A DNA stretch of 21,089 nt. Origin: a virus. The position numbers and the translations under genes are program-made. The stretch lies in IMG/VR virus record IMGVR_UViG_3300024518_002904, positions 1-21,089 of that record. The stretch is one strand, 5' to 3'. How positions within the stretch are numbered: position 1 is the first letter of the stretch; each line of letters begins with the position of its first letter. Positions 2,047 through 19,662 of the stretch are shown one piece after another. The notes below the pieces were generated by a model. It did not search any database. It saw only the letters and a program-made list of their open reading frames with translations, and had not been told where the DNA came from.

Positions 2047-2550
2047 CTATTTGGAATCCAAGACTTTCAAATCTATTAATCCCTTTCTAGCGTGTATACA
2101 TTTTGCAATTATTTGAAATTTATGCTCAATTTGTCCGAATAATTGTCTATTATCTTCCAAACTTACGATCTCAAATAGAGTATCTCCATATAAAACAAAG
2201 TCCCCCTCTCTCACATATGTATCTTGATCTTCTTGTAGTCGTCTTTGGTGAAAATTAATTGTTATAGTGTGTTCCTTATCTAAACCATAATTTTCAGTTT
2301 TTGTTTTTATTCCCCCGAATTCAACTAACGCATATACTCTTATTGGCGGTAAAAAGCTTTTTTGTACAGCCTCGCCATAAAGTGGATGAAAGTTTGTTCT
2401 CTCGACAGATACTGGTATATAGAGAATACTCTGACCAATGACCCTTTCCAGCAATTCATCATTGACCTGCTTTACTAAGTCTCGCTCTTTTTCGCCAAGA
2501 AATAGGGGGGGAGGCGGATTTGATGGTTTTGTCCATTTATTATCTGCCAT
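2047..2550 (-). CDS. T4 gp14-like neck protein, first copy (167 aa)
   Basis: The 167-residue protein is the core-only version of the neighbouring 281-aa protein. It begins MADNKWTKPSNPPPPLF, with a proline-rich N-terminus, then ERTNFHPLYGEA, RVYALVEF, YVREGDFVLYGDTLFEIV and RQLFGQ segments. The latter part matches the layout of T4 gp14, the neck protein that acts with gp13 to close the filled head and receive the tail. It is shorter than T4 gp14 (256 aa as I recall). It sits 3 bases after the gp15-like gene. With gp13-like and gp15-like genes immediately upstream, the context supports a head-tail connector role. It could alternatively be called a generic neck protein. Confidence 0.8.
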   Translation of the reverse strand: MADNKWTKPSNPPPPLFLGEKERDLVKQVNDELLERVIGQSILYIPVSVERTNFHPLYGEAVQKSFLPPIRVYALVEFGGIKTKTENYGLDKEHTITINFHQRRLQEDQDTYVREGDFVLYGDTLFEIVSLEDNRQLFGQIEHKFQIIAKCIHARKGLIDLKVLDSK

Positions 2551-4792: not shown

Positions 4793-6520
4793 TTAGATAA
4801 GATCCTGGACAATAACCAATCCGTACATATCTGGTCGTACCATCTTCTTGGCATAACGAGTCATGACGCCTTTACGCGGCACGAAGTCCTCGGTACCGAA
4901 AATGGTAGGAGTCATCTGGAGAGGCACATACGGTGCGTATACATATCCGCTTTCGAGGAAAGAAGAACCTTTACGTCCTGCGAGAACAACGTTCCGTGGG
5001 AAGTAAGGATCGACGTAAACGTCAAACTTCTTGCTTAACGAGCCGATTTTAACAGCACCAACCTGACCACGATCATCATCGTGAGTCACAGCTCCACGGA
5101 ATCCAGCGGTGAACTCAAGAAGATTTGCAACTTCTGGTGAACACACCAAAAAGTTTGCGCCTCCACGGAGAGTCTTACGGTGAATTTGAGCCGAGACATC
5201 ATTGATGGTCTCAATCAAGGTTTCATACCATTCGCTGACATTGCCGGTGAAGTCTGGGAATCCAGCTGTAGGATCCAATGGAACTCCAGTTCCACGGTTC
5301 ACAAACTTACCAGGAAGTCTAGACCAGAACAAGGTTTCAGCGGTTGCACCCTTTACGAGATCTTCCAAGATTTCTTGGTCGATTTCAAGAGCGATGTGCT
5401 CTGAAAGAACGCTTGTCAACTCAACTTCGGCATCCAAGTTATGGTATGCATTCAAATCTTGAGCCAATTCTGGCGTCCACTTAGCCTTGAGCTTCTTGGT
5501 TTTAGCCGTAACAGAAACCGAATCAACCTTGATGTCGATTTCAGGAATCTGACTTTCGTTCTCAAGTCCCCAAGTATCTAGGCCGACGACAGAGCCGAGG
5601 GCTCCTCCCTGATTCATGTTATCATCGATGACAAAAGTTGCGTCATCATCAGCAACAAGCGTGCCAGAAAGAGCAATGGTATCGGTACCATCGGCAACAA
5701 CAAACAAGATATTTCCTACAGTATTTGGATCGTCGCGAGTCAAGCGGCGGACCTGAGTAGTATCAACAACTCCGGCGTTATCAAGGGTAATAGTGACATA
5801 ATCCTTGATATTGAACTGATCTGCAGTAAGAGTACTCAGCGGAACAGAAACAACTGCTGCGGCTGTTCCAGAAGCAATATCCGGATCAAAACGCACCAAG
5901 CGATCTCCAAGGGCCGCGAGAGCTGTACCGGCAGGTCCTGTACCAGACCAAGCGCTACCATCTGTTGGCCCACCAACAGTACCAGAAGCCATAGATAGGC
6001 CGGTAAGGGTAAGTCCGCCAGTTACGGAGCCAGTAGGGCTTGAATAGCCGTTATTCAAGGAATAGTAGCTTTGTTCTGCAAGGTCTCCAGCGAGTGAAAC
6101 TCCGCCGGTGATTTGCTGACCAACAACGCCACCACCATGAATAGAATCTCCACGTCGATAATCAAGGCGTCCAGCCAATGGGCCGCCATAAGTAAAATCG
6201 AGGAAGAAAATGAGTCCCGCAGGGAGGCTCATGGGTTGAACGCTAACGAGATCGTTTGCGATCAGTCCGCCGAAAACTCGGCGAACAATTGGAAATGCGA
6301 CAGATGCGAAACCTTCCACATCACCGCCTGCCATTGAAGATGCTTCGCGAAGAAGCTCTTTGGCTTGATTTTCTAAAAGGCTTGCCATGCCGTGCTTTTT
6401 CCGTTCATCAGAAAGCCCCTCTAAAAGACCAGTTTGTTCCCACTTGTCAACAAGTGCTGCACCTTCCTTAGAGAGATCACGACGGACAATACCTTCGGTT
6501 AATTTATTTAAAATAGACAT
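4793..6520 (-). CDS. Major capsid protein, T4 gp23-like (575 aa)
   Basis: This is the major head subunit. The segment VSVQPMSLPAGLIFFLDFTYGG (residues about 97-118) matches the conserved gp23 region VQPM.GP.G..F....YG. The C-terminal part has YVYAPYVPLQ and RYAKKMVRPDMYGL, also typical of gp23. The N-terminal 60 residues are helical and charged and end in L57-R58-E59 followed by A60. This fits the gp21 protease site (L/I-x-E before A/G) that in T4 removes the first 65 residues. The gene follows the scaffold gene by 17 bases, has a GGAG ribosome binding site, and ends at a strong terminator. Codon choice looks less AT-biased than in the neighbours (many AAG and AAC codons), as expected for a very highly expressed protein. 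Confidence 0.96.
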   Translation of the reverse strand: MSILNKLTEGIVRRDLSKEGAALVDKWEQTGLLEGLSDERKKHGMASLLENQAKELLREASSMAGGDVEGFASVAFPIVRRVFGGLIANDLVSVQPMSLPAGLIFFLDFTYGGPLAGRLDYRRGDSIHGGGVVGQQITGGVSLAGDLAEQSYYSLNNGYSSPTGSVTGGLTLTGLSMASGTVGGPTDGSAWSGTGPAGTALAALGDRLVRFDPDIASGTAAAVVSVPLSTLTADQFNIKDYVTITLDNAGVVDTTQVRRLTRDDPNTVGNILFVVADGTDTIALSGTLVADDDATFVIDDNMNQGGALGSVVGLDTWGLENESQIPEIDIKVDSVSVTAKTKKLKAKWTPELAQDLNAYHNLDAEVELTSVLSEHIALEIDQEILEDLVKGATAETLFWSRLPGKFVNRGTGVPLDPTAGFPDFTGNVSEWYETLIETINDVSAQIHRKTLRGGANFLVCSPEVANLLEFTAGFRGAVTHDDDRGQVGAVKIGSLSKKFDVYVDPYFPRNVVLAGRKGSSFLESGYVYAPYVPLQMTPTIFGTEDFVPRKGVMTRYAKKMVRPDMYGLVIVQDLI

Positions 6521-6537: not shown

Positions 6538-7551
6538 TTATGGTTGTCTGTTTTTCTTTATTCCAGCTAAAATCTGCATACGATCCACCACAGGTGTATC
6601 TTTGCTTCTTTTTGCCTTTCTAGGTAAAGTGGCAGAGGGTCTTTCGATGGTCTCGCGTAGTGATTGTGGCTGTGCTCTACCTGTTACACTTCCCACTGCG
6701 CCTTTCAGAGTTTCAAATATTACCTTTGCTTCTTCGATCGAATCGGATTTTGACAGAGTATCAACAATTTTAGATTTTTGTCGCTCATTCAGGGAGGTAT
6801 CTACTAAAATCCTATTCGTATAAATTAATCTCGCGTTAGAGAGATTAACCTTTTCAATGTTTTCTTTAAATGTTTTTAACGCCATTATCATTTTGGCGCT
6901 CTTTTCTTTGAGAGTTTTATTTTCTTCAGAAAGTCTTTCACCAGCATCGATCAACGCTTTTACCTGCTCTTTTGCTTGTGTTGCCGATCTTCTAGCTAGC
7001 TCCATCTCTTCTTTATAATTCATAATATCTTCTGGAGTTCCTGCCCACCCTTCTTTTTCCGGATGGATATCTACGACTAGTTCTTCCAAAATTTCATCTA
7101 AATCTGCTATATCTAAATCAATTTCCTCTTCCAGTGTCGCATCAACGGAAACAGAAGAGATTTCATCTTCCTCGGAACGAGATGGCACACCAGTTGAGAC
7201 ATCGTCAGCAACATCCTCATGGGAAGATGCATCACCGACAAGTTCTTCATCTATTTCAGCTAGGGCCTCGGACATTTCTTTCAATTCTTCCATGCTTAGG
7301 ACAATTTCGCTGTCCGATGCAGTTTCGTCTGCAGAGCCGGCAAGAGGAATATTGTCCTCAAGAGAAGAAGAAATAGATGCAGATGTATCTTCTCCAGAAA
7401 TATCAAATTCTTCCTCTTGTTCCAAGAGGTTTTCCACAGCTTCTTTAATATCCGTAGAATACTTGCTTAAAATTGCAGATTCTGCGTTCTTTATGGCGGC
7501 CTCTTTTAAGGCTGAGGCATCAACTATTGCTTGTTCCAATAATGAAGACAT
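6538..7551 (-). CDS. Prohead core scaffold protein, T4 gp22-like (337 aa)
   Basis: An acidic, helix-rich protein directly upstream of the capsid gene, the standard place of gp22, which forms the internal core on which gp23 assembles. Residues 45-165 are very Glu/Asp/Ser-rich; residues 180-250 look like coiled coil. The C-terminal part has SLNERQKSKIVDTLSKSDSI followed by EEAKVIFETL, a pattern I associate with gp22-like proteins of T4-like phages, and a basic tail. Several sites fit the prohead protease rule (L15-K-E before A18, I35-K-E before A38, I-E-E before A in the C-terminal part), in line with T4, where gp22 is degraded to peptides during maturation. An AT-rich 101-base leader carries a CTATTTAT element. 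Confidence 0.88.
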   Translation of the reverse strand: MSSLLEQAIVDASALKEAAIKNAESAILSKYSTDIKEAVENLLEQEEEFDISGEDTSASISSSLEDNIPLAGSADETASDSEIVLSMEELKEMSEALAEIDEELVGDASSHEDVADDVSTGVPSRSEEDEISSVSVDATLEEEIDLDIADLDEILEELVVDIHPEKEGWAGTPEDIMNYKEEMELARRSATQAKEQVKALIDAGERLSEENKTLKEKSAKMIMALKTFKENIEKVNLSNARLIYTNRILVDTSLNERQKSKIVDTLSKSDSIEEAKVIFETLKGAVGSVTGRAQPQSLRETIERPSATLPRKAKRSKDTPVVDRMQILAGIKKNRQP

Positions 7552-7562
7552 TTATATTCTCC

Positions 7563-7624
7563 CTTTATAAAAATACTCAAAATAAATAGTTATTCAATTT
7601 ATAAAAAGACATATTTTTATAAAG
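7563..7624. repeat. Perfect 13-bp inverted repeat flanking a CTATTTAT element
   Basis: CTTTATAAAAATA at 7563-7575 is the exact reverse complement of TATTTTTATAAAG at 7612-7624. The 36-base spacer holds the CTATTTAT element (7582-7589) and another ATTTATAAAAAG stretch. It lies in the AT-rich gap before the scaffold gene. It could be an operator, a protein-binding site or an mRNA hairpin; AT-richness makes chance partly credible. Confidence 0.55.
7582..7589 (-). promoter_or_regulatory. CTATTTAT element upstream of the scaffold gene
   Basis: This is an exact copy of the recurring octamer (sense strand ACTATTTATTTTG), 38 bases upstream of the scaffold ATG at 7551. In T4 the scaffold and capsid genes are transcribed late, so a late promoter is expected near here. 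Assignment as a promoter is inference. Confidence 0.42.
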
Positions 7625-7652: not shown

Positions 7653-8060
7653 TTAATCTGTTAATCCTGCGCCAGTTAGGGCAAACATTTCCGCTGATCG
7701 TATGCCCGTTAAATCCGCTACCAACTCGAATGAGCCGTCCGTTCCGGCGGTGTCCAAAGAAATATATATTTCTTTACATTTGCTATTTAGGGTGATATTA
7801 TCTCCCTTGCTTGACAGGGTAAAATAGTGGTGGCCGCTAATAACACTAGCGGTTGCTGATGAATTAAAGTGTACTCGAATTGCTATACTTCCGGAGGTGT
7901 TTGAAATAAGAATGTTTTTTGTCACATTTGGAAATTCTACTTTAATTTCCCCGTTGTTTGGTCCGGCACCATCCAAAACCGACCCTGTCAAGTATGGAGT
8001 TCCACCAACTTGATAGGAGCCGACATTTTGTAGCCCAGCCTTATATTGATAAATTGACAT
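7653..8060 (-). CDS. Small beta-rich virion-like protein (135 aa)
   Basis: The 135-residue protein begins MSIYQYKAGLQNVGSYQVGG and alternates polar and hydrophobic residues in beta-strand style (KNILISNTSGSIAIRVHF, SGHHYFTLSSKGDNITL, KEIYISLDTAG). No enzyme motif is seen, and there is no signal peptide. Its size, composition and place just before the scaffold and capsid genes suggest a head decoration or fibre-base protein. I know no named family for it. An AAGGAG ribosome binding site precedes the ATG. The gap to the bS21 gene upstream is 51 bases and carries a CTAATTAT variant of the recurring element. Confidence 0.7.
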   Translation of the reverse strand: MSIYQYKAGLQNVGSYQVGGTPYLTGSVLDGAGPNNGEIKVEFPNVTKNILISNTSGSIAIRVHFNSSATASVISGHHYFTLSSKGDNITLNSKCKEIYISLDTAGTDGSFELVADLTGIRSAEMFALTGAGLTD

Positions 8061-8111: not shown

Positions 8112-8384
8112 TTATCTTTTATTTCTTTTTTTATTTTTGGTTTCTGCCAAAGTGGAGCCGGCCTCCCTCTTATTTTCCTCTTCTAAAAGTTTTTGCAAAA
8201 CCCTCTTTCTCTTCTTTGCGGCCTTTCTTTTTTTTGTGGATGGCTTCTCATAATATATATTTTCACGAACTTTTTCCATGATTTTGTTTTTTTTACATTT
8301 TCTTATAAATCTTTTAATCATTCTCTGCTGTGTATCGTTCCTGCCCCTTGGCTTGACTGATACATTCACTGCTTTTTTTGACAT
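8112..8384 (-). CDS. rpsU: Ribosomal protein bS21 homologue encoded by the phage (90 aa)
   Basis: Bacterial small-subunit protein bS21 binds near the 3' end of 16S rRNA and helps mRNA selection at initiation. The match spans residues 7-70: NVSVKPRGRNDTQQRMIKRF, then IRKCKKNKIMEKVRENIYYE followed by KPSTKKRKAAKKRKRV. This is the bS21 plan, with a beta start, an RRF-like basic helix, the YEKPS turn and a Lys/Arg-rich helix. The last 20 residues form an extra basic tail rich in Lys, Arg and Asn. At 90 residues it is slightly longer than typical cellular bS21 (about 70). It has a GGAGAT ribosome binding site and a CTATTTAT element 30 bases upstream. Phage-encoded bS21 is known from cultivated and uncultivated viruses. 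Here it sits among late virion genes, which suggests late expression. Confidence 0.93.
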   Translation of the reverse strand: MSKKAVNVSVKPRGRNDTQQRMIKRFIRKCKKNKIMEKVRENIYYEKPSTKKRKAAKKRKRVLQKLLEEENKREAGSTLAETKNKKRNKR

Positions 8385-8406
8385 TCTATCTCCATTTGTC
8401 TTCTAT

Positions 8407-8414
8407 ATAAATAG
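8407..8414 (-). promoter_or_regulatory. CTATTTAT element upstream of the bS21 gene
   Basis: An exact octamer copy (sense strand CCTATTTATATAG) lies 30 bases before the bS21 ATG at 8384, in a 44-base gap. On the opposite strand it reads TATAAATA, the T4 late-promoter consensus, but that orientation points away from all genes. Confidence 0.42.
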
Positions 8415-8428
8415 GGTACTGGTGTAGT

Positions 8429-8866
8429 TTATTCTATTAAAGTTCTCTTTCCATCGTCATGCATCAAGAGGACGGGATATCCAAGATCGCGGTAGCGTTG
8501 GATTTCATTTTTTGTCTCCTCATGTCCGTAGGCTTCATCTGTTTTTGAGCCAACCATAATGGTGGGATTTCCATATTTTGTATTGCTGGCGAAAAATATA
8601 ACCCCACTATCTATCGGCTTTCTCACTGGCTGACCTCGAAGCCATTCGCATATATATTCGCGACAAGACTTGGGGCAACTTGTTTTGAAAATGGAACACC
8701 CAGGGCCACTTTTATTTAAAAAGTTACAAGGCTTTCTTTCTGGTTTATGCCAGATCGGAACACCGGGTTTTTCGGGATTGAAAACATTATCCGAGTAAAC
8801 ATGAGTTACTGTACAGCACTCTGAACAATCCCCGCAAGAGCGATTTGGATCTTTTTTAAGCGCCAT
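8429..8866 (-). CDS. Cysteine-cluster protein, YkgJ-like (145 aa)
   Basis: The N-terminal half holds nine cysteines: C11, C14, C17 and C18 in CGDCSECC, then C47, C57, C64, C68 and C73 in CNFL, GCSIF and CPKSCREYICEW. This spacing fits the YkgJ / CxxCxxCC family, thought to bind zinc or an iron-sulfur cluster; biochemical functions are mostly unknown. The C-terminal half (IFFASNTKYGNPTIMVGSKT and a VLLMHDDGKRTLIE end) looks like a small alpha/beta domain. The start overlaps the stop of the 979-aa fibre-like gene by one base (TAATG), so translation is probably coupled. It sits between a fibre gene and bS21, an odd place for a metal-cluster protein. The family call rests on cysteine pattern alone. 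Confidence 0.8.
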   Translation of the reverse strand: MALKKDPNRSCGDCSECCTVTHVYSDNVFNPEKPGVPIWHKPERKPCNFLNKSGPGCSIFKTSCPKSCREYICEWLRGQPVRKPIDSGVIFFASNTKYGNPTIMVGSKTDEAYGHEETKNEIQRYRDLGYPVLLMHDDGKRTLIE

Positions 8867-11805
8867 TAATGGACCGCGCCTTCTGTGAAGGCGATTCCCT
8901 CAATCTGCAAAGCTACCATAGTCAATTCGGAATTCATTGTTGTTATATCAATTTCTACAAAAATCATATCTCCCTCGTATGCTGCGGAAATATCCGCAGG
9001 AGTCGTCTTAGTTAGTGAAAAAAACTTGTCTGCAACTCCCGCTGGCGTTGATTGACTGTCAACACTGGCAGCGTTGGTTGTCCACACTTCGGTATTTGCT
9101 GCTGTCCTTTCGATTGGTATGATGGCACCGCTAGGGTCGGCAATTAAATTTCCCTGAAGCTGCGCAACATAGTGTTTAAAATTTAGAACTGTGGCGGTGG
9201 AGGTGGTATTAAACGCGTATATTAGCTTAATGGCCAGCGGGAAGGCTGTACACAACCCGGAAGGTATTTCAAGTATAGATCCGGCGACTGAGCCATTGCC
9301 GGTGGCGGCGTCGAGGACAACATCTTTAACGGTGAAACTAATATTTCCTCCGCTCCCTACGGTATAAGTTTCGTCAGTAAGCATGCCGCCTCCCAAATCC
9401 GGATTGAGTGAAATTCTCTTTTTCCACTGAGCAAGACCAGCAGCAAATTTCTGTCCTTTCGCGTTAATCACAGTATGAGACGGCATTAATCGAAACCTCT
9501 CGAAAACTGGAGCCGTAGTTACTGTGCTTTCTATTCTAACCCTCATCCAACGGCCCGTGACACCGTTAATAAGTGTTGGCTCCCAAGAATCGTTATTCGT
9601 AATTCCCGCAAACAATCTTTCTTCGCTGTTTGCCCTCAAGAATATATTATTGGCGTACCTATATTGCTCTTCGGATGATACAGCCATAACTCCAATTTCT
9701 GTCCAAGTGTCGGCTGCGGATTGATATTCAAGAATAAAGTTTCCGGAGCCAGTGGTGGCCGCTGTGGTCTGATCAACTTCCAGCCCCCAGTGTTTTAGCG
9801 TCGTGTCCGAACTATCTTTTCTGTTTGTACACCACAGGATGGAACAGCCTGCCGAAGCGGATTGGAATGAGAAAGTTGAGCCTTCGGTGCTTGAGCCGCT
9901 CGTTGATACATCGATGAAGTTAGAACCATTGTCTCCTCCTGCGGCGTCGTTGGTCGTCGTAAAAATTGTGTTGTTCGTTGCATAGTTCGTTCCCTCTCCT
10001 GCCGAAAAGCCACCTCCGAACTCTGGATGACCTATAACTTGATTGGCGCCCCATAATTGTTGCGATGCCTCGTCGGCGCCAATGCCCTCGGTAAAAAATG
10101 TCCAAGCATGATCCGAGGGAATCCAGGTTGTTGGGATGTCAAATACACCATTCATGAAGGCTGATAATCTTGTAATTGCGGCGTCACCGGTTAAGCCGGC
10201 ATCAACCTTAATATCGTTGACTGCTGGGTCTGAAAGTCCAGAAGTAACCAGCAAACTTGCAGAATTAGATGTGAGGTGAAAAGTGTTTTGAATGTTAAAG
10301 AGGTTGACTCCTTGGAGGACCACGACTGCTGAACCCCCAATACAAAATCCATCTTCCACGTTTGTTGCGCCCATGTTTATGTCGATGCCTTGAAATCTTC
10401 CTCGATTGCCTACTCTTGGGCTTGCGGGGCTGTATGCTCTTACAGCACAGTCAACTGCGCCGGCGGAGTTTGGAATATGTACGCCCTCAACGGCCAAAAT
10501 TCCATCTTGTACATCCAAGATGGCATCACAGTCTCCTGTAGAATATCGAATTTCAAGAGCGATTGTCTTTCCTCGTCCAATATTTCCGTAGCCGGATCCT
10601 CGGAGTCCCGTGCCGCCATAAAAGGAAAGAAAGTTGGCGCTGGCGACCTGACTAGGAGCCGAGCCACTAAAACTAACGGCATAGGATCCAGTATCTGCGG
10701 GGATCGCGATTTTGAAATCTTTCAGCAAACTTCCGTCTGCGAGTTGAAAAACATCACCAGTTCCGGTTGAAGAGGAGACATCTGTTACTTGCCAGCCGGC
10801 TTCGCCGGTGACCGAAATGCCAGCAGGAATAACAATCGGCGTATCCTCAATATAGGTTCCGGGGCCAACTCGGACATAATCCCCAGCAACCGAGGCTGCC
10901 ACTGCGCCAGAGATCGTCAGGTAAAAGGTCTCTGCGCCCGTTGAATCAATCCTGCCAATTGTTCCAGATGGAATTGTAAGATTTGTCAGGTTTGATCCGT
11001 CGCCGTAAAATGCAGATCCGGAGATATTTCCAGAACCACTTATGTCTCCTGTAACTGCGAGTGTCGTTCCATCGAATTGTAAATTAACCTCACCCTGGAC
11101 GCTACTTGCATCTACGGCTGTTATAATATAGTTATCTATTCCATTGGTGTATGTTGAAATTGGGGCTGATGGCAGGTTCGTAAGATTTGACCCATCACCA
11201 TAGAATGCTGAACCAGAAACGTTTCCTGATCCAGAAATATCTCCTGTAACCGTCAGCGTGTTGCTACCCGTGCTCCAAGTAAAATCTGCGTCACCAGCAA
11301 ACGAGCCGTCATCGTTAAATTGGATTTGTGTATTGGTGCCACCAGGTGAACCACCTGGGAGGTTTGTTAAGTTTGACCCGTCACCATAAAAGAAGGCGCC
11401 CGAAATGTTTGCAGAAGCCGTTATATCACCCGTGACTGTTAATGCATTTGATGTCTTATCCCAGACAAAATCGCTGTCTCCGCCAAATAGACCACCGTCA
11501 TTAAATTGGACATAAGTATCTAATCCGCCTGGGACAGAACTGCTTAATCCGATGATGCTGCTTGCCGAAAGAGGGCCGTTGATGAAGACGGAACCGGTAA
11601 ACTGGTGAGTATCATCAGCAGAGTCACCGAATTTTGTATCACCATCAGCATCAATGTGGGTAACATTCGTATTTATGACATTTACATTGTACTCATTGGC
11701 GGTTACAGATCCGGAGACAACGAGGTCACCATCGATCTCAACCGGGCCTCCTTCAAAGACTACTTTGCCACTAACATAATTTCTACTGGGTCTAAATCTT
11801 GACAT
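8866..11805 (-). CDS. Large modular fibre-like protein with beta-helix region (979 aa)
   Basis: Residues 1-8 (MSRFRPSR) and the following GDLVVSGSV match the N-terminus of the gene before it, suggesting a shared virion anchor. Residues 99-277 hold three modules ending in FYGDGSNLTNL(P/T) (139, 201, 266), two of them starting with a QFND..F.GD.DF.W segment; such modules are common in phage tail-fibre-type proteins. Residues about 290-560 look like a right-handed beta helix (GDYVRVGPGTYIEDTPIVIP). The C-terminal 400 residues are beta-rich and possibly host-binding. No signal peptide or catalytic motif is evident. Its position between protease and scaffold genes would suit a head fibre, but a tail fibre encoded out of place is equally possible. 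Stop and start are coupled to both neighbours by TAATG overlaps. Confidence 0.85.
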   Translation of the reverse strand: MSRFRPSRNYVSGKVVFEGGPVEIDGDLVVSGSVTANEYNVNVINTNVTHIDADGDTKFGDSADDTHQFTGSVFINGPLSASSIIGLSSSVPGGLDTYVQFNDGGLFGGDSDFVWDKTSNALTVTGDITASANISGAFFYGDGSNLTNLPGGSPGGTNTQIQFNDDGSFAGDADFTWSTGSNTLTVTGDISGSGNVSGSAFYGDGSNLTNLPSAPISTYTNGIDNYIITAVDASSVQGEVNLQFDGTTLAVTGDISGSGNISGSAFYGDGSNLTNLTIPSGTIGRIDSTGAETFYLTISGAVAASVAGDYVRVGPGTYIEDTPIVIPAGISVTGEAGWQVTDVSSSTGTGDVFQLADGSLLKDFKIAIPADTGSYAVSFSGSAPSQVASANFLSFYGGTGLRGSGYGNIGRGKTIALEIRYSTGDCDAILDVQDGILAVEGVHIPNSAGAVDCAVRAYSPASPRVGNRGRFQGIDINMGATNVEDGFCIGGSAVVVLQGVNLFNIQNTFHLTSNSASLLVTSGLSDPAVNDIKVDAGLTGDAAITRLSAFMNGVFDIPTTWIPSDHAWTFFTEGIGADEASQQLWGANQVIGHPEFGGGFSAGEGTNYATNNTIFTTTNDAAGGDNGSNFIDVSTSGSSTEGSTFSFQSASAGCSILWCTNRKDSSDTTLKHWGLEVDQTTAATTGSGNFILEYQSAADTWTEIGVMAVSSEEQYRYANNIFLRANSEERLFAGITNNDSWEPTLINGVTGRWMRVRIESTVTTAPVFERFRLMPSHTVINAKGQKFAAGLAQWKKRISLNPDLGGGMLTDETYTVGSGGNISFTVKDVVLDAATGNGSVAGSILEIPSGLCTAFPLAIKLIYAFNTTSTATVLNFKHYVAQLQGNLIADPSGAIIPIERTAANTEVWTTNAASVDSQSTPAGVADKFFSLTKTTPADISAAYEGDMIFVEIDITTMNSELTMVALQIEGIAFTEGAVH
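10975..11511 (-). repeat. Three diverged in-frame modules of the fibre gene
   Basis: Modules at 11356-11511, 11170-11325 and 10975-11082 encode QFND...TVTGDISGSGN.SGSAFYGDGSNLTNL-type units, about 62-65 residues apart. The third lacks the QFNDDG part. DNA identity is visible but decayed, so the duplications are not recent. They may be sites for recombination between fibre genes. Confidence 0.8.
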
Positions 11806-13310
11806 TATGGAATGGCCCCCCCGAGAAGACCCTCAACTGCTGTTGCTAATCTGTCAATTGCACCTTGCGAGGCATCTGGGGCAGTGGCTGCCCAATCTCC
11901 CGGAGTTCCCGGAGAATAACGAATTTCGTATTCCTTAAATGGCGGATTCGCGCCGCTGATAAAAGTTAAATCTGGCATCGTGCTTATGTTTGAGGTTCCG
12001 CCATCGGCGGAGACAACATTGATACCAAGAGAGCTTGACAGGGAAGAATCGGGATTATAGAAAACTCTTGCCCCGTTTGCTGCCTCAACAGCATAATCTC
12101 CCGTAATTGCCCCATACATTTCTGGTAAGTCCACAGCACCGTCGTAATAATCCGATGCTATTGTATTTACACCAACTGCACGGGGGCACGTTGTGGAGCC
12201 GGTAAACTCAAAAAATCTAAAAAGTGCCGCATTTGAATCATAAGCCGTTGTGCCATTCACCTGTATTCCATCTGATTCTCGGAAAACGACTTCGCCCTGG
12301 ACTATTAGAGACCCTGCACTAAGCGCCTTGATCAGTTGATTTGATCCATCCATAACTGTTGATTTTATATAAAGGGCGCCCTGCGTACCCCCATTTAGGG
12401 CGGCTGTCATTTGAGAATAGCATGTTGTTATATTAACCCTTCCAAAGTTGGCAGATAGCGCCTTCAATATTGAGCCTGGAGCGCCAAACTTGCAGCCGCT
12501 GTAAACGATTTTTTGAACACACTTATTATAAAGAGTGGTTCCGGCGCCGGCAGCAGGATCTGCATCGAACTCGATATCCCAAAATGTCAACTCTGAAGAA
12601 AAGTGGACACTAGGATCTGATGTGCTTCCGTTTACGGCATCGGGTGGGATGACAAATTTTGTGCCAAGGCCCTTAATCGAAAGAGTATTTGTTCCTGGAA
12701 GGCTTGCGGGCCCCTGCGAATGGGCGATATAAAGTCTGGTTGTGGGGCCAGATGTGGCCTCGTTTGCGTAAACCCAAGCTTTTCGGAAAGGTAAAAATCC
12801 ACTGTCTCCAATCTCAATTGGGGTGCCTCGCAAATCATCTTCAGCATAGGTGTTCCCAAGAGCTGCATCGATAATGGAGCCATCTGCTTTTGAGGAAGAA
12901 ACTGTCGTCCAGGTGCCATTATCAAGACTTGATGTTGCGCCATAAAAAATGGCATTATGGGCTTGGAAATTTAAAGGGAGGGTATAATCGCCCGGTGCGC
13001 AATAGATAGAAACAGCCTGATAAGTGCCACCCGAATCATAAAGCTCGATTCCCGTTGGTATTCTTTCCAAAACTTTTTTAAGTGTTTTTAGGGCACTACC
13101 AGAAGTTAGGCCGTCGCTTTTATCACTTCCAGATGAAGAATCAACATATAAGTTGAGTGTTTCACCAACTTCTCCGCCGTAACCCAGACCATCGCCTCCG
13201 TCATCAAGCAAATAGCGACGGACTCCTTCAATATTTTTCGAGACATCTAAATCTCCATCTATTGTGGAATCCCCAGATATTCTACTCCTACTTGGCCGAT
13301 ATCTTGACAT
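11805..13310 (-). CDS. Fibre-like protein with pectate-lyase-type beta-helix (501 aa)
   Basis: The start MSRYRPSRSRISGDSTIDGD and GDLDVS repeat the N-terminal plan of the 979-aa protein encoded next (1-base overlap, TAATG), pointing to a common attachment point. Residues 50-130 (LNLYVDSSSGSDKSDGLT, ALKTLKKVLERIP, VSIYCAPGDYTLPL) have the look of the opening turns of a parallel beta-helix of the pectate-lyase fold. Residues 130-440 continue as short repetitive strands. No glycosidase or lyase active-site motif is certain. The gene has its own CTATTTAT element 23 bases upstream and a GAGAGG ribosome binding site. A head fibre or tailspike is the best guess; enzymatic activity on surface glycans is possible but not shown. 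Confidence 0.82.
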   Translation of the reverse strand: MSRYRPSRSRISGDSTIDGDLDVSKNIEGVRRYLLDDGGDGLGYGGEVGETLNLYVDSSSGSDKSDGLTSGSALKTLKKVLERIPTGIELYDSGGTYQAVSIYCAPGDYTLPLNFQAHNAIFYGATSSLDNGTWTTVSSSKADGSIIDAALGNTYAEDDLRGTPIEIGDSGFLPFRKAWVYANEATSGPTTRLYIAHSQGPASLPGTNTLSIKGLGTKFVIPPDAVNGSTSDPSVHFSSELTFWDIEFDADPAAGAGTTLYNKCVQKIVYSGCKFGAPGSILKALSANFGRVNITTCYSQMTAALNGGTQGALYIKSTVMDGSNQLIKALSAGSLIVQGEVVFRESDGIQVNGTTAYDSNAALFRFFEFTGSTTCPRAVGVNTIASDYYDGAVDLPEMYGAITGDYAVEAANGARVFYNPDSSLSSSLGINVVSADGGTSNISTMPDLTFISGANPPFKEYEIRYSPGTPGDWAATAPDASQGAIDRLATAVEGLLGGAIP

Positions 13311-13325
13311 ATTTTTTCCCTCTCA

Positions 13326-13333
13326 ATAAATAG
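13326..13333 (-). promoter_or_regulatory. CTATTTAT element upstream of the fibre gene pair
   Basis: An exact octamer copy (sense strand GACTATTTATTGAG), 23 bases upstream of the ATG at 13310, in a 36-base gap. It would let the fibre, Cys-cluster and possibly bS21 genes be transcribed separately from the protease operon. Confidence 0.42.
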
Positions 13334-13346
13334 TCAGAAAGATAAA

Positions 13347-13769
13347 CTAAATCATGTTTTTCCAATTGTTTCCGCCAGCAATTGCCATAATTCCACTTAT
13401 ATCAACGCCGGGATCATCTGGAGAATAATTTGATAGTGGGCCATTGCTTGTTTTTTGACCTGGAGATCCGGGCCTCTTGATGGGTTCAACGTTTTCGAAT
13501 ATTCCCTCGAAACCACCACCGAGTGATTCTTCTAATTTTCTTTTTTTCGCACTCATGGATTGCTGAACCCCCTCTTGAAGCTCAACTCGCTGTCTTGAGA
13601 AGTCGCGTTCTGGCTCTGGCGTCTTGGCTTCAACAATCGTTTGCTGGGAGCCAATACCAACTGCCACTTCTTTGATTAAATTTGACAAAACTCCCTCTTC
13701 AAAAATGATTTCTTTGATGCATTGCTTAATAAGGGGTTTTAAAATTTTTTGTAGTTCTTGTTTTTTCAT
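13347..13769 (-). CDS. Probable prohead core protein (140 aa), family not recognised
   Basis: The protein begins MKKQELQKILKPLIKQCIKE, an amphipathic basic helix, followed by IIFEEGVLSNLIKEVAVGIG. The middle is charged (Glu, Lys, Arg, Gln) and the C-terminus is Gly/Pro/Asn-rich. Two sites fit the gp21 cleavage rule: I45-V46-E47 before A48 and L64-Q65-E66 before G67. In T4 the small core proteins gp67 and gp68 lie near gp21, and gp67 is cut by the protease. Here the gene overlaps the protease gene by four bases (ATGA), so translation is coupled. No sequence similarity to gp67 or gp68 is visible to me; the core-protein role is inferred from position, charge and cleavage sites. Confidence 0.72.
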   Translation of the reverse strand: MKKQELQKILKPLIKQCIKEIIFEEGVLSNLIKEVAVGIGSQQTIVEAKTPEPERDFSRQRVELQEGVQQSMSAKKRKLEESLGGGFEGIFENVEPIKRPGSPGQKTSNGPLSNYSPDDPGVDISGIMAIAGGNNWKNMI

Positions 13770-14380
13770 TTATTATCCAAAATATTGTTCAAGGCACGAT
13801 TAATCCTATCGGCTTTAGTAAAAATGTTTGGCTCTTTATATTGTTTGCCTTCCTGTAAATTCATAAATGCATTTGGTGTTGAAGGCTCGGAGACGAAATC
13901 AAAGCAAATAAGTTGGAAATCATCTTCAACCATTGTTCCCTGTTGTCCTTCTGTGACCGAACCAAGTCCTCGCGAAGAAATACCCAATTGAACTCCCGAT
14001 TCAACGAGGGATCTTAAAATCCCTCCGGACGGAGTATCGAGAATTTTAACTGTTCCCATAACTTTTGGACCATCTGCCCAGATATTTGTAACCATGTGGC
14101 TTGCATTTTTTAGATTAATAACGGAATCGTCTGGATGATCCAGCTCGCCCAGGGCGCGCCGTTCTTTGACAAGCTTTTGATATGTTTTCATCTCTCTCAT
14201 GAGAGTTTGCATAGGATAAATTCTCCCATTACCATTCGGAGTCTCAGCTAGCTGCATTAACCCAGTAAGATACATGGAATTATTTTCTGTGATATCTCTC
14301 TTTTCTGCCTCTGTCAGAAGATCTTGGCAGACGCCCCCTTCGCAGAGAGCGTAGTATTCTCTTAGTAAAACTTTACTCAT
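13766..14380 (-). CDS. Prohead maturation protease, T4 gp21-like (204 aa)
   Basis: This serine protease (T4 gp21 family, MEROPS S80) digests scaffold and trims the capsid protein inside the prohead. Conserved blocks are in order: NGNGRIYP (50-56), RRALGELDHPDDSVINLKNA with H82 as the likely catalytic histidine, ILDTPSGGILRSLVESG (114-129), LGISSRGLGS with S135 or S136 as the nucleophile, and FDFVSEPSTPNAFM (160-173). The length is close to T4's (about 212). A very strong ribosome binding site (AAGGAGGGG) lies in front of the ATG. The last four bases overlap the start of the 140-aa gene. It is followed not by scaffold, as in T4, but by a block of five other genes before the scaffold gene at 7551. 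Confidence 0.96.
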   Translation of the reverse strand: MSKVLLREYYALCEGGVCQDLLTEAEKRDITENNSMYLTGLMQLAETPNGNGRIYPMQTLMREMKTYQKLVKERRALGELDHPDDSVINLKNASHMVTNIWADGPKVMGTVKILDTPSGGILRSLVESGVQLGISSRGLGSVTEGQQGTMVEDDFQLICFDFVSEPSTPNAFMNLQEGKQYKEPNIFTKADRINRALNNILDNK

Positions 14381-14456: not shown

Positions 14457-14750
14457 TTAATCACCTCCCTTGTTTTGGATTTTGATGCCACAGTCGTCAA
14501 AGACCATGTTTAGTATATATGATGTCCCCGAACTTAGCCAGCCGCAAATTAAAAAATTCACGAGTGTTAGTTCATAAGTAAATAGTTCGGTAAAAGGATT
14601 AACGCCGCATAAAAAGACGCCAACCCAGAATCCTATACACATAGGACAGGTCCAGAAATAACCATTTGGTCTTATCTTCCCAAAAATCTTTCCATAGCAG
14701 ATTAATTGGGTTAAACCGTAGGCTGTTAAAATAAAATAGAGGAGGCTCAC
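14457..14750 (-). CDS. Small membrane protein with CPMC motif (97 aa)
   Basis: Hydrophobic segments at about residues 2-20, 38-50 and 62-83 suggest two or three membrane spans. Between the first two lies GYFWTCPMCIGFWVGVFLCG, with C35 and C38 in a CxxC pair. The end is short and polar with C87. This plan (membrane span, RP..F.CPMC.GFWVG) recalls small proteins of unknown function (DUF1360-like) in bacteria and phages; the family name is tentative. The start codon is GTG at 14750, overlapping the TAG of the 183-aa gene by one base (TAGTG) with AAGGA just upstream. Its place among head genes is unexpected; an inner-membrane role in head assembly (T4 proheads form at the membrane) or an unrelated host-directed role are both possible. 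Confidence 0.78.
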   Translation of the reverse strand: MSLLYFILTAYGLTQLICYGKIFGKIRPNGYFWTCPMCIGFWVGVFLCGVNPFTELFTYELTLVNFLICGWLSSGTSYILNMVFDDCGIKIQNKGGD

Positions 14751-15302: not shown

Positions 15303-16121
15303 TTATTGTAATTCCTTAACTAAATTCTGAATTTTTAGAATTTCATGAATAAATTTATTATCAAGAGTTCGTTTTGATGTTGATTCTAATATTTCTAAAA
15401 CTTTTTTTGTTTTTTCGAACATCTCTACGTCTGATTTTATCTCTCTTGAATTTAAAGATTCAGTTACCGCCCTTCTTAATCTGGGTATTTCTTCATTTAA
15501 AAAAATTTTCATTTCAACACCATTATCCGAAAATGACCCAATATACCTGCTTAAAAGAAGTTTTTGCTCTTCCAAAAGTTGTCCTGAGTATTTTTCATTG
15601 AATTTTTTAACGAATGTCTTATATGTTAAATTATCAATTGGCTTTAATAAATCCCTATCCTTCTCTTCTTGACTAATCATACCGCCAACCATTTGATTTT
15701 CCAGCAATACTCTTTGTCTTGTTTTGACCCTTGGATTGAAAATTTGGAAAACTGTTGCCAAATCTTTATAGTTTGGAATAAAATTTGAAAAAACCTCCGA
15801 GGATATATTCTTATTTATCTTATTGATAATCGCACTTTGCTCTTCGAAGAGCTGTTTATGATTTATTCCCTTTTTCTGCATTCTTGATTCAAAAATAATT
15901 CTTTGGGCAGTATTTTTATCTACATTTTTAGTATAAAGAATGGATTTATAAATTTCCAAATCTTTAGCCAAAGTAGTGTTGCCCTTAAAATGCTCTCTTA
16001 ACAGCGTCATTATCGTGCGCTTTTTACGATCATCTTTATCAATAACTGACTTTGTCAATTCTCTTATTAGCGCCTCAAAAATAAAGGCTGTATTACGCTT
16101 TTTGTTGTGTTTCATCTTCAT
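15303..16121 (-). CDS. Helical charged protein between portal and protease (272 aa), unknown function
   Basis: The protein begins MKMKHNKKRNTAFIFEALIR and is almost entirely helical, with many Lys, Glu, Asn and Ile residues. Segments such as KKRNTAFIFEALIRELTKSV, FNPRVKTRQRVLLENQM and ELQ-ended heptads suggest coiled coil. Its start lies inside the 3' end of the portal gene (29-base overlap); a second ATG two codons in is also possible. A GGAG stretch about 10 bases before the first ATG supports the longer form. I recall similar KKRNTA-starting proteins next to portal genes in marine T4-like phages, without a known function. It may be a prohead core or portal-associated assembly factor; that is inference from position and helical content. 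Confidence 0.78.
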   Translation of the reverse strand: MKMKHNKKRNTAFIFEALIRELTKSVIDKDDRKKRTIMTLLREHFKGNTTLAKDLEIYKSILYTKNVDKNTAQRIIFESRMQKKGINHKQLFEEQSAIINKINKNISSEVFSNFIPNYKDLATVFQIFNPRVKTRQRVLLENQMVGGMISQEEKDRDLLKPIDNLTYKTFVKKFNEKYSGQLLEEQKLLLSRYIGSFSDNGVEMKIFLNEEIPRLRRAVTESLNSREIKSDVEMFEKTKKVLEILESTSKRTLDNKFIHEILKIQNLVKELQ

Positions 16122-18069
16122 TTATCTGAATCTCCGAATTTTCTAATTCTACAATTAAATCACGAATTTCTGACTTAGCCTCAAATAGCAATGTTTCCTC
16201 GCTACTATAAGTAGGCTCTCCAACTTCGTAAATACCCCTAGAAAGACCCATTAAATCGGACATTCCTGGGGTAATATCTTTTTGTTTTGGTATGGCCATG
16301 GCTGAATAATTGTGTTGACGGCCTGAGCGGCTGTCTCCGCCTCTAAATTTTTTAGAAACGTATTTTTTTCCCTTGGCTTTCTTGGAAAGAGATCTTTTTG
16401 TGTGTTTTCTTGAGCGATCATCTCTTTTTGCCGGAGCTGCCAGGAGGGCGCCCTCGTCATCTCCGCCAAGTTCCTCTCCGCCGGATTCCTCTCCGCCGGG
16501 TTCCTCTCCGCCGAGATCAAAATCATCTCCACCCATATCATCACCCAAATCTCCCATTTCATCAGAACCGAGTCCGAGGTCCCCACCCAAACTGGCGGCC
16601 GCCTGTTCGCCGGCGGATTCAGCGGCTGCATTTAATTCTGCTTCATACGTTCTGTCGTGAAACATTTCTCTTTGATTTCTGACAAATTCCTCTTCCGATA
16701 AATTAAAAATATTTTGAGCAATCCAGCGCCGGCTAAAGAAATTCTCCGTTGCACCCCCCGCAATATCAAATTTAATTTTCCAGTGCTCTAATTCCTGCAT
16801 TTCTGCTATCTTGGAGGGATTATTTAGCTTCAACCTGAAACCAACAAGATCGTCACCCCTGAAACCAAGCGTATAGAGGTGGACAATTCCTATTTTTTCA
16901 AGTTCTGCGATAACGGCGCGCTGCAACCTCTGGATTGTCCGTGCAAATCTTACGTCTTTTTGTGCTAAAGTTGTTTTATCCTCGTTAGCTCCCCCCTCCG
17001 AATCACTTGAGAGGTATGCGGACGGAATTTTCAGTGCAGCAAAGAGTTTATCTCTAAGATATTTAACATCATCAATGTCTCCAGTGAACTGTCCACCCTG
17101 CAATGTTTCGATTTTTGATGATTCACCGCCGCGAACTGGAATAAAATAGTCCTCTTCTACCGAAAGCGGATTATAACGTAAGTCGACGCGGCCCGTATTG
17201 GCATCAACTACTTGATTTCTCTTCATGGAAGTAATTGTTTTCTGGACAAAGGTTTCGACATCTTGCGGAGCGATGTTACCCACATCAATATAAAAAACGC
17301 GGCGTTCAGCAGAGCGAACGATGCGATAAGCCATCATTGCGTCTTCCATTAGTGTCAATTGTCTCCAAATTCTCCTTCCAGACTCAAGAACCGAAGTACC
17401 ATATGGGGAGTACTTGTCATTTCCCAATACTCTAAAGTGAGCAATTTGCCAATTTTCAAAAGTCATACCGGCAGAATTCCACTGGTACTGGACATAATTG
17501 GGATTTGTTGGATCTTCTCCCTCCATTCTCTCTACCTCTTTAAGCGGGATGGGGATTACGGATTTAATTCCAATTCTCTCGTCAATATCGAGATAAAGAA
17601 TAAAATCTCCGAATTTGCACATAGATCGGCACCAGCCATAGAGATTGTGATTAATATTTAAAATATTTTCGTATAATGACCTCAAAATAGATTTAATTTC
17701 TTCGTTTGAACACTCAACGTGCAACATGGGAGACAATGCTGAATGAGTCGTCATCTCATCTGCATAAATATCCATAGCAGATGCAATTTCGGGCATATAT
17801 TCCATCTGCTCATAGTCAATATATCTTTCTGCCCTGTTTTGTTGTGCCATTATTTTTGAATGCATAACATCAAACGGGCTGTATTCTGATCTTCTGAATT
17901 GTTGACCCGACGCGGACCTGAATTGCGTGGAATATTTGTCCAGGGCGCTTCTTCGAATCTTTCGATTCATTTGTGTACGCCAGTTTACGATTGGTCCGGA
18001 AAATAGTCTCGTTAGTCTTCTAAATAATTCAGATTGTGGATTATTTGGATTATTTTTTTGATCAGCCAT
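16093..18069 (-). CDS. Portal vertex protein, T4 gp20-like (658 aa)
   Basis: The portal forms the ring at one capsid vertex through which DNA enters and to which the neck binds. Diagnostic parts are YMPEIASAMDIYADEM, RRIWRQLTLMEDAMMAYRIV, RSAERRVFYIDVGNIAPQDV, then SVEEDYFIPVRGG, ETLQGGQFTGDIDDVKYL and KLFAALKIPSAYL, all as in gp20. The protein is longer than T4's 524 residues. The extra C-terminus (about 495-658) has a Gly/Asp/Glu-rich stretch (495-541) with GGEE repeats, then a Lys/Arg-rich stretch (544-580), then a conserved-looking end. L-F-E before A near the C-terminus would fit the gp21 site. It follows the terminase gene by three bases and overlaps the 272-aa gene. Confidence 0.96.
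   Translation of the reverse strand: MADQKNNPNNPQSELFRRLTRLFSGPIVNWRTQMNRKIRRSALDKYSTQFRSASGQQFRRSEYSPFDVMHSKIMAQQNRAERYIDYEQMEYMPEIASAMDIYADEMTTHSALSPMLHVECSNEEIKSILRSLYENILNINHNLYGWCRSMCKFGDFILYLDIDERIGIKSVIPIPLKEVERMEGEDPTNPNYVQYQWNSAGMTFENWQIAHFRVLGNDKYSPYGTSVLESGRRIWRQLTLMEDAMMAYRIVRSAERRVFYIDVGNIAPQDVETFVQKTITSMKRNQVVDANTGRVDLRYNPLSVEEDYFIPVRGGESSKIETLQGGQFTGDIDDVKYLRDKLFAALKIPSAYLSSDSEGGANEDKTTLAQKDVRFARTIQRLQRAVIAELEKIGIVHLYTLGFRGDDLVGFRLKLNNPSKIAEMQELEHWKIKFDIAGGATENFFSRRWIAQNIFNLSEEEFVRNQREMFHDRTYEAELNAAAESAGEQAAASLGGDLGLGSDEMGDLGDDMGGDDFDLGGEEPGGEESGGEELGGDDEGALLAAPAKRDDRSRKHTKRSLSKKAKGKKYVSKKFRGGDSRSGRQHNYSAMAIPKQKDITPGMSDLMGLSRGIYEVGEPTYSSEETLLFEAKSEIRDLIVELENSEIQINEDETQQKA
16471..16515 (-). 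repeat. Three tandem 15-bp repeats in the portal gene
   Basis: The plus-strand unit TTCCTCTCCGCCG plus two bases occurs three times in a row (16471, 16486, 16501). It encodes GGEE(P/S/L) units in the acidic part of the portal tail. A degenerate copy precedes it. The unusual GC-rich purity suggests recent slippage expansion. Confidence 0.85.
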
Positions 18070-18072
18070 TTT

Positions 18073-19662
18073 TTATCCTTTTATTAGCCATGAATATTGC
18101 TTATAGTCTTCTTTTGCCTTAAACATTTTTTCATCCAAGGCTTCTTTCTTATTATAGCCTTCCATTCCTGGAATTGTTGTATTTATTTTTGTATTGACAG
18201 CAACCATTGAGTTTAAACAAGCTTTTTTAAATTCTATATCTCTCTTATTTACTGTTAGCGCCGTGTCTCTTACCCAACATGCTATTGCTAATGACATTAT
18301 TAAGTCATCATTATATCCCCTCATTGCTTGAGGTTTGCCATTATACCAGATAAAAGTGCGCAATTCGTTGGAAAAGCGAACAGAATATACTTTAATTAGT
18401 TTGTTTCTCACGAATTCTTCCAATTTTGCCACAATAAGGGGCCGTGTTTTTAAAGAAGTAGTAAATCCCGCCACTGCGTTGGCCATTCTTTCGCCCTGAT
18501 GACTCTCTACGAACTCATGAGTGCTTTTTACGGAGTAATATAAGTTTGAATATTCTAAATCAATGAGCTTTTCAAGCACAGATATTCCAATTCCAACATT
18601 TTCCACCACCAATAAGCAGTTTCCATATTCTTTTCCCGCTTGCATGAGGACGTTGGAGTACATATCCAAACTTGGTTTTCCTTGATATTCCGCAACAACC
18701 TCCATTGTTTCTAGTTTTATAATATGAAACACAGAATAATCTGCGCCGTCGCCTCTGGCAACGTCTGCCACCAGCAAATAAGAACATTGAGGATCATATT
18801 CTTCCCAAATCCACATATTTCTGTCGAATCCTGCCCTATATTTAGGATCACATACCATTCCCTCTATCCAGTCAATGTCGTCTGGGTGGATCACACTCTC
18901 ACCTGATGTATTGAAGTTACATTCTAGCTCTTGGGCTATCTCTCGGCGAGACATATTCCTCGTTTCTTTGTCGAACCAAGCCTGATCTCTGTCAGGATGG
19001 ACGTCCCAGTTCAGTATAATGGGATGAAAATCGTTTGACCCCTCCGATGCCTCGCTATATGTCTTGTGAAACCAATTTCCCACACCATTTGGAGTCGATA
19101 ATGCGATCACTCGACCACCAGTTGAGATTGTGGGATATAAACCGGCCCATAATTCATCCAAACTCTCAACGTGTGCGGCCTCGTCGATCACCAAAAGAGA
19201 GAGGGCCTCAGAACGACCAGCATCGCCGGAAGTAGAGGCGGCTTGGATCTGAGAACCGTTAGAAAGTTCGAAAGATGCCCTATTGTCGATAGATATTTCC
19301 GCGATGAGAAGGAAATTCGGAATATTTTTCATAATTGCCTTGACTTTCTTAACAAGGTTGGCCGCTGTTTTGAATTTTGTGGCCATAACGAGGATGTTTT
19401 TGTCTCTATGAAACAACATCATCCAAACAATATAGCCGGCAGCGATGGTTGAGATACCCAACTGTCGTGCTTTGAGGATTACATTAAAGCGATAATCATT
19501 AAAATCAACTAACAAATCCGCCTGATAATCATAGGTCTTGAATGGAATAAGTCCCTTGATCGGATGTGAGATTCTTGCGTAATTATTTACGAAGTAGACC
19601 GGATCTTTTCCACACTTCAATATTTCAGCTACTATTTCCTTTTTGGATAGTGTGTATGACAT
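18073..19662 (-). CDS. Terminase large subunit, T4 gp17-like (529 aa)
   Basis: This ATPase-nuclease motor cuts and packages phage DNA into the prohead through the portal. The ATPase part has a Q-motif-like YDYQ (44-47), a Walker A KARQLGIST (64-72), Walker B SLLVIDEAA with D160 and E161, and the coupling motif ALSTPNG (187-193). The nuclease part has D300 in LLVADVARGDGADYS, E354 in LLVVENVGIG, and D452/D453 in NDDLIMSLAIA, the expected acidic triad of the RNase H fold. Walker A lacks the classical Lys before Ser/Thr and instead has Lys-64 and Arg-66 early, as in a number of phage terminases. The length suits the family. It stands directly upstream of the portal gene. Confidence 0.97.
   Translation of the reverse strand: MSYTLSKKEIVAEILKCGKDPVYFVNNYARISHPIKGLIPFKTYDYQADLLVDFNDYRFNVILKARQLGISTIAAGYIVWMMLFHRDKNILVMATKFKTAANLVKKVKAIMKNIPNFLLIAEISIDNRASFELSNGSQIQAASTSGDAGRSEALSLLVIDEAAHVESLDELWAGLYPTISTGGRVIALSTPNGVGNWFHKTYSEASEGSNDFHPIILNWDVHPDRDQAWFDKETRNMSRREIAQELECNFNTSGESVIHPDDIDWIEGMVCDPKYRAGFDRNMWIWEEYDPQCSYLLVADVARGDGADYSVFHIIKLETMEVVAEYQGKPSLDMYSNVLMQAGKEYGNCLLVVENVGIGISVLEKLIDLEYSNLYYSVKSTHEFVESHQGERMANAVAGFTTSLKTRPLIVAKLEEFVRNKLIKVYSVRFSNELRTFIWYNGKPQAMRGYNDDLIMSLAIACWVRDTALTVNKRDIEFKKACLNSMVAVNTKINTTIPGMEGYNKKEALDEKMFKAKEDYKQYSWLIKG

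Follow-up and report, generated by a model that had tools for sequence, protein, structure and literature searches.

The window, by which we mean the whole 21,089-base IMG/VR virus fragment analysed here, carries its recognised genes all on the minus strand. Their order runs, in the upstream part, from the large terminase through a T4-type portal, three small conserved genes and the gp21 prohead protease to a 140-aa gene, and continues in the downstream part with two fibre-like genes, a Cys-rich protein, the ribosomal protein bS21, a small protein, a putative scaffold, gp23 and likely head-tail genes. Since a portal (PF07230), a protease (PF03420) and a capsid protein (PF07068) of T4 type are all present, the fragment is T4-like. 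The genes on which the argument rests are the following.

18073-19662, minus: large terminase gp17 (phrog_2, 3.5e-51; PF03237)
16093-18069, minus: portal gp20 (PF07230, 254 bits)
14457-14750, minus: conserved small protein of unknown function (phrog_781) with CPMC..GFW and TELF motifs and an embedded promoter, predicted from sequence
13766-14380, minus: prohead protease, T4 gp21 (PF03420, 98.9 bits; phrog_207, 1e-54)
13347-13769, minus: small conserved gene without family match, recognised by synteny, directly upstream of bS21 in most relatives
8429-13310, minus: inserted fibre-like genes (8866-11805 and 11805-13310) and Cys-rich protein (8429-8866), none of which occupies the slot in L002, L003 and L006, the nearest relatives
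8112-8384, minus: phage bS21 (rpsU-like), 90 aa, with a basic C-terminal extension (Pfam/TIGRFAM, PDB sequence matches, fold, dN below dS)
7653-8060, minus: small conserved protein downstream of bS21 (synteny)
6538-7551, minus: putative scaffold in the T4 gp22 position (position only; no family match)
4793-6520, minus: major capsid protein gp23 (PF07068, 250 bits)

The preliminary description had placed bS21 inside a late head-gene cluster, and the gene does lie among those for terminase, gp20, gp21 and gp23. Its further statement that bS21 sits between fibre and scaffold genes is right as to position, but both names come from sequence character or position, without a clear family match. The two fibre-like proteins share the start MSR(F/Y)RPSR, and the larger contains repeat units resembling GDISGSGNISGSAFYGDGSNLTNL. 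The Cys-rich protein matches CxxCxxCC (PF03692) below threshold, and no homologue of it was labelled among the fetched relatives. Elsewhere in the window, the adjacent genes 1189-2034 and 2047-2550 (both minus) have the same MADNKWTKPSNPPPPLF start and are alike over much of their length, and they are probably a tandem duplication.

The product of 8112-8384 is securely a genuine bS21. The open reading frame begins with ATG, with TGGAGAT just upstream, and matches Pfam PF01165 Ribosomal_S21 over residues 15-62 with 36.3 bits (cut-off 27, E 4.5e-9), which bears out the homology claimed beforehand, as well as the NCBIfam equivalog TIGR00030 S21p with 33.5 bits (cut-off 28.95). The core as originally drawn had to be trimmed, because the segment VSVKPRG that it included falls outside the profile match. 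The PDB sequences that match it best belong to bS21 chains from bacteria, with E-values from 3e-6 to 2e-5. The two short helices and the long C-terminal helix expected of the fold appear in the AlphaFold2 model (H19-32, H35-43 and H48-89; mean pLDDT 91.8), and the top PDB fold matches in Foldseek are bS21/mS21 chains, the best being 9fib_U (probability 0.92, TM 0.74 by target). For a helical protein as short as this one, no Foldseek match in the PDB had a significant E-value (none below 0.1). A tblastn search of phage records with the window bS21 gave no match.

The phage family has the consensus NVxVxPRxxExxERxIKRFxKKVKKExIxExxRxRxYYEKPSxKKR and is strongly basic, with a median net charge of +18. 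The extra basic tail described at the C-terminus is real: the window protein, at 90 aa, is longer than the family median of about 75, and only its nearest relatives, L002 and L006, have such a tail in common with it. Close pairs of relatives have dN of 0.07-0.17 against dS of 0.58-1.1 (dN/dS near 0.1-0.16), showing that the phage bS21 is under purifying selection. We were unable to read a host lineage from bS21, as the most similar bacterial bS21s, found in a genome scan with 12 of the 33 phage bS21s, were scattered over Firmicutes, Firestonebacteria, Chloroflexota, Planctomycetes and others.

Relatives of the window were collected as viral contigs by a capsid-protein search, which returned at least 80 at 59-77% identity. 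The PF01165 scan took in 80 whole records, including L002, which was added from a bS21 search, and leaving out one short capsid relative, L080. Among the matches listed, 33 of the 80 records had a PF01165 match, and bS21 occupied the same slot wherever the slot was present; gene labelling by homology to the window suggests that the bS21-negative records are fragments ending short of it. In every one of the 30 records with both flanks, again among the matches listed, bS21 lies on the same strand between the protease side (the protease or a homologue of the 13347 gene) and the scaffold. Since 28 of these records were chosen by capsid alone, the other two being the window and L002, and all 28 capsid-chosen relatives that span the interval contain bS21, the gene is a core gene of the lineage and not a stray acquisition. 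The interval itself varies: it also holds fibre-like genes in the window, L011, L016, L031 and others, and a small gene precedes bS21 in L022 and L033, while bS21 is constant. The slot does not change, and the fibre genes that separate protease and bS21 have been inserted into it. Outside the lineage, a 484-kb uncultured phage has a bS21 before its scaffold gene, and Flavobacterium phage immuto has a related head module with a different small gene in the bS21 slot; this 75-aa gene does not read as bS21 and has no match to the family profile.

A constant place between protease and scaffold could also mean that bS21 now serves as part of the head, packed as a small basic protein in the prohead core or virion and perhaps entering the next cell together with the DNA. 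The fixed position in the 30 records and the strongly basic character of the family would suit such a role, and encapsidation has been raised by Chen et al. (PMC9723584). However, the bS21 core, with its EKPS motif and helices, has been kept, which packing would not need, and immuto has a related head module without bS21, so that we regard this explanation as quite unlikely.

The lineage has a late-type motif of its own, ACTATTTA(T/C), that is, ACTATTTAY, which is enriched about 60-fold between genes. There, dinucleotide frequencies predict about 3 occurrences of ACTATTTA and 2.5 of CTATTTAT, and 177 and 104, respectively, were observed, whereas the T4 late consensus TATAAATA was not enriched between genes (4 observed, 3.1 expected). 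Over all loci, CTATTTAT occurs 151 times on the coding strand and 8 times on the opposite strand, and CTATTTA sites lie mostly 25-50 nt ahead of a start. At 51 of 63 loci the motif lies ahead of the scaffold gene, and at 40 of 71 ahead of a gp13-like gene; it is never found directly before the capsid gene, which comes after the scaffold. From this distribution, ACTATTTAY is apparently the late promoter of the lineage. It resembles the T4 late promoter, which is served by gp55, in being a short AT-rich element near the start, and differs from it in sequence. A gp55-like late sigma factor is encoded in two long relatives, in a region beyond the window fragment: in the 160-kb relative G038 (L127:1333-2046, plus strand; phrog_234, E 4.5e-9) and, as a 55% identical copy, in G040. 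A T-tract, a further difference from T4, often lies 14-17 nt upstream of the motif before the scaffold and gp13-like genes; for the scaffold sites, the idea that it is a mere terminator tail was rejected, as only 1 of 51 has a stable stem there. Some enrichment of the motif was also seen in immuto, and Microcystis phage Mel-JY01 had no clear enrichment of ACTATTTAY over control. The sites in the window that concern us are the following.

14577-14586, minus: ACTATTTACT within the 14457-14750 coding region, a promoter predicted to serve the protease, the 13347 gene and bS21 (codon invariance)
13325-13334, minus: ACTATTTATT before the inserted fibre-like genes (PWM 14.8)
8406-8415, minus: CCTATTTATA, a weak copy of the motif, 31 nt ahead of the bS21 start (PWM 9.2, whereas the four strongest sites in the window score 13.7-14.8)
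7581-7590, minus: ACTATTTATT before the scaffold and capsid genes (PWM 14.8)
1146-1155, minus: CCTATTTATA before the 251-1105 gene (PWM 9.2)

The preliminary description had given bS21 a candidate late-promoter element of its own. A late-promoter-like element does lie upstream, but it is the weak CCTATTTATA and not the T4 consensus, and the motif stands directly before bS21 in only 4 of 32 loci. The T4 sequence was rejected as the bS21 promoter because at 8406 it lies on the wrong strand; on the bS21 strand TATAAATA occurs once in the window, far off at 2797. In most loci, the element closest to bS21 instead lies within a gene further upstream, and transcription of bS21 may begin there. The motif had seemed to stand before the protease in 21 records, but nearly all of these sites fall inside the 14457-14750 gene, where the element coincides with the codons of the conserved TELF. 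To tell constraint on the protein from constraint on the DNA, codon use was compared among 26 divergent copies of this gene. The codons of the element were GAA in 25 of 25 copies, CTA in 25 of 26 and TTT in 24 of 24, although the lineage uses CTA for about 10% of its leucines, whereas modal-codon fractions at other conserved four- and six-fold degenerate columns of the same gene were 0.31-0.62. The binomial figure for these codons is 3e-25, which is not a true probability as the copies are related. This contrast within one gene points to constraint on the DNA. In L023, which has lost TELF, the motif is found ahead of the protease in a non-coding position. We therefore predict that in most members a late promoter embedded in coding sequence would drive the protease, the 13347 gene and bS21 together. 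In the window, the fibre insertion puts about 6 kb between bS21 and this promoter, a distance for which the two elements preceding the fibre genes and bS21, respectively, would make up. It is possible, and we propose it tentatively, that bS21 is an obligatory late head-operon gene turned on with the protease through a non-T4 embedded promoter, one sigma factor thereby timing both ribosome retuning and head maturation. In another gene, gp23, an alignment of 78 relatives has at least one conserved Leu column with a modal codon fraction of 0.94 against a mean of 0.49, possibly another DNA-level signal.

The late genes were described as having Shine-Dalgarno (SD) sites, and this held both in the window, where 15 of 20 genes have one, and beyond it, where an SD site precedes the major capsid gene in 71 of 78 relatives (random sites would give about 11), the scaffold gene in 54 of 67 and bS21 in 18 of 32. 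Because Bacteroidetes usually do without SD sites, SD use by the lineage argues against a Bacteroidetes host. At the position of Tyr54 of Flavobacterium johnsoniae (reference sequence verified as 7jil), a residue reported to block the anti-SD in Bacteroidia, all 35 phage bS21 copies have R, K, A, N or S. The Bacteroidetes bS21 phages of Chen 2022 (clades a-e, PMC9723584) likewise have bS21 beside TerL, portal, prohead protease and MCP, but theirs has an aromatic residue at this position, and its strand is not that of the structural genes but the opposite one. SD use and the lack of an anti-SD-blocking Tyr therefore set the lineage apart from Bacteroidetes-type bS21 phages. In the survey of 900 published bS21 phages in the same paper, the prohead protease was the commonest structural gene nearby (310), and that survey may include members of this lineage.

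Other known phages share parts of this arrangement. Mel-JY01 (PP395634) has an annotated RpsU in the same slot and on the same strand, in the order protease - hypothetical - RpsU - ... - capsid; its capsid is 49% identical over 61% of the query and thus outside the scanned lineage (59-77%). Pelagibacter phage HTVC008M (PMC6375957), a marine myovirus, also has bS21, but its gene adjoins cobS, hsp20 and replication genes, not a head cluster, and its sequence is distant. The Far-T4 phages (Roux 2015, PMC4360716) are likewise T4-like phages of aquatic viromes with divergent gp23, gp20 and gp17, and in the capsid comparison their member RM378 comes out as one of the closest named phages; that paper does not mention bS21 or promoters.

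We consider it fairly probable, though by no means assured, that bS21, a fixed part of the head module, is transcribed late and loaded onto host 30S subunits in place of host bS21 during capsid protein synthesis, where it would bias initiation towards phage mRNAs with SD sites. In most members, bS21 would probably be transcribed late with the prohead protease and its neighbour. The protein, made alongside the head proteins, could then exchange with host bS21 on 30S subunits; this step is suggested by the protein family, by the finding that 70S ribosomes of E. coli take up HTVC008M bS21 (PMC6375957) and by late-stage transcription in lake phages, in which phage bS21 and structural genes were highly transcribed in the same samples (PMC9723584). 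Finally, subunits carrying phage bS21 may favour SD-led late phage mRNAs.

In the single biochemical assay, ribosomes with HTVC008M bS21 gave only about 5% of normal GFP in vitro (PMC6375957), a result that inhibition fits as well as retuning does. Phage bS21 in host ribosomes might thus depress translation of host mRNA, a shut-off, without favouring phage mRNA. We think this unlikely, since the assay used E. coli ribosomes and not those of the natural host, late placement would be poor timing for a shut-off, and a general poison would also stop capsid synthesis. Alternatively, the phage might supply extra bS21 against low or degraded host bS21, with specificity unchanged. Since bS21 binds loosely and can be exchanged (PMC6375957), providing more of it would suffice to load subunits that have none; however, the phage proteins follow a consensus of their own, KKVKKE..I.E, and a family member shares only about 32-55% identity with its best bacterial matches. 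This suggests altered properties, and we regard mere supply, too, as quite unlikely. Retuning of host ribosomes towards phage mRNAs with SD sites is hence the reading we prefer.

Phage bS21 and its place near head genes are already known from published work, and the idea of a late takeover is also in print (Chen 2022, PMC9723584; Mizuno 2019, PMC6375957). As far as the open-licence PMC literature shows, the constant same-strand bS21 slot in an SD-using lineage is new, as are the ACTATTTAY promoter and its coding-embedded copy, though priority for all of these is not certain; a search of that literature for CTATTTAT as a late promoter returned only unrelated papers. These findings bear on the question whether ribosomes are retuned by phages for their late mRNAs. 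A lineage in which bS21 always stays between protease and scaffold argues strongly, by comparison, that the protein matters for virion production, and the promoter motif together with the synonymous-codon signature offers a direct and cheap handle on the timing.
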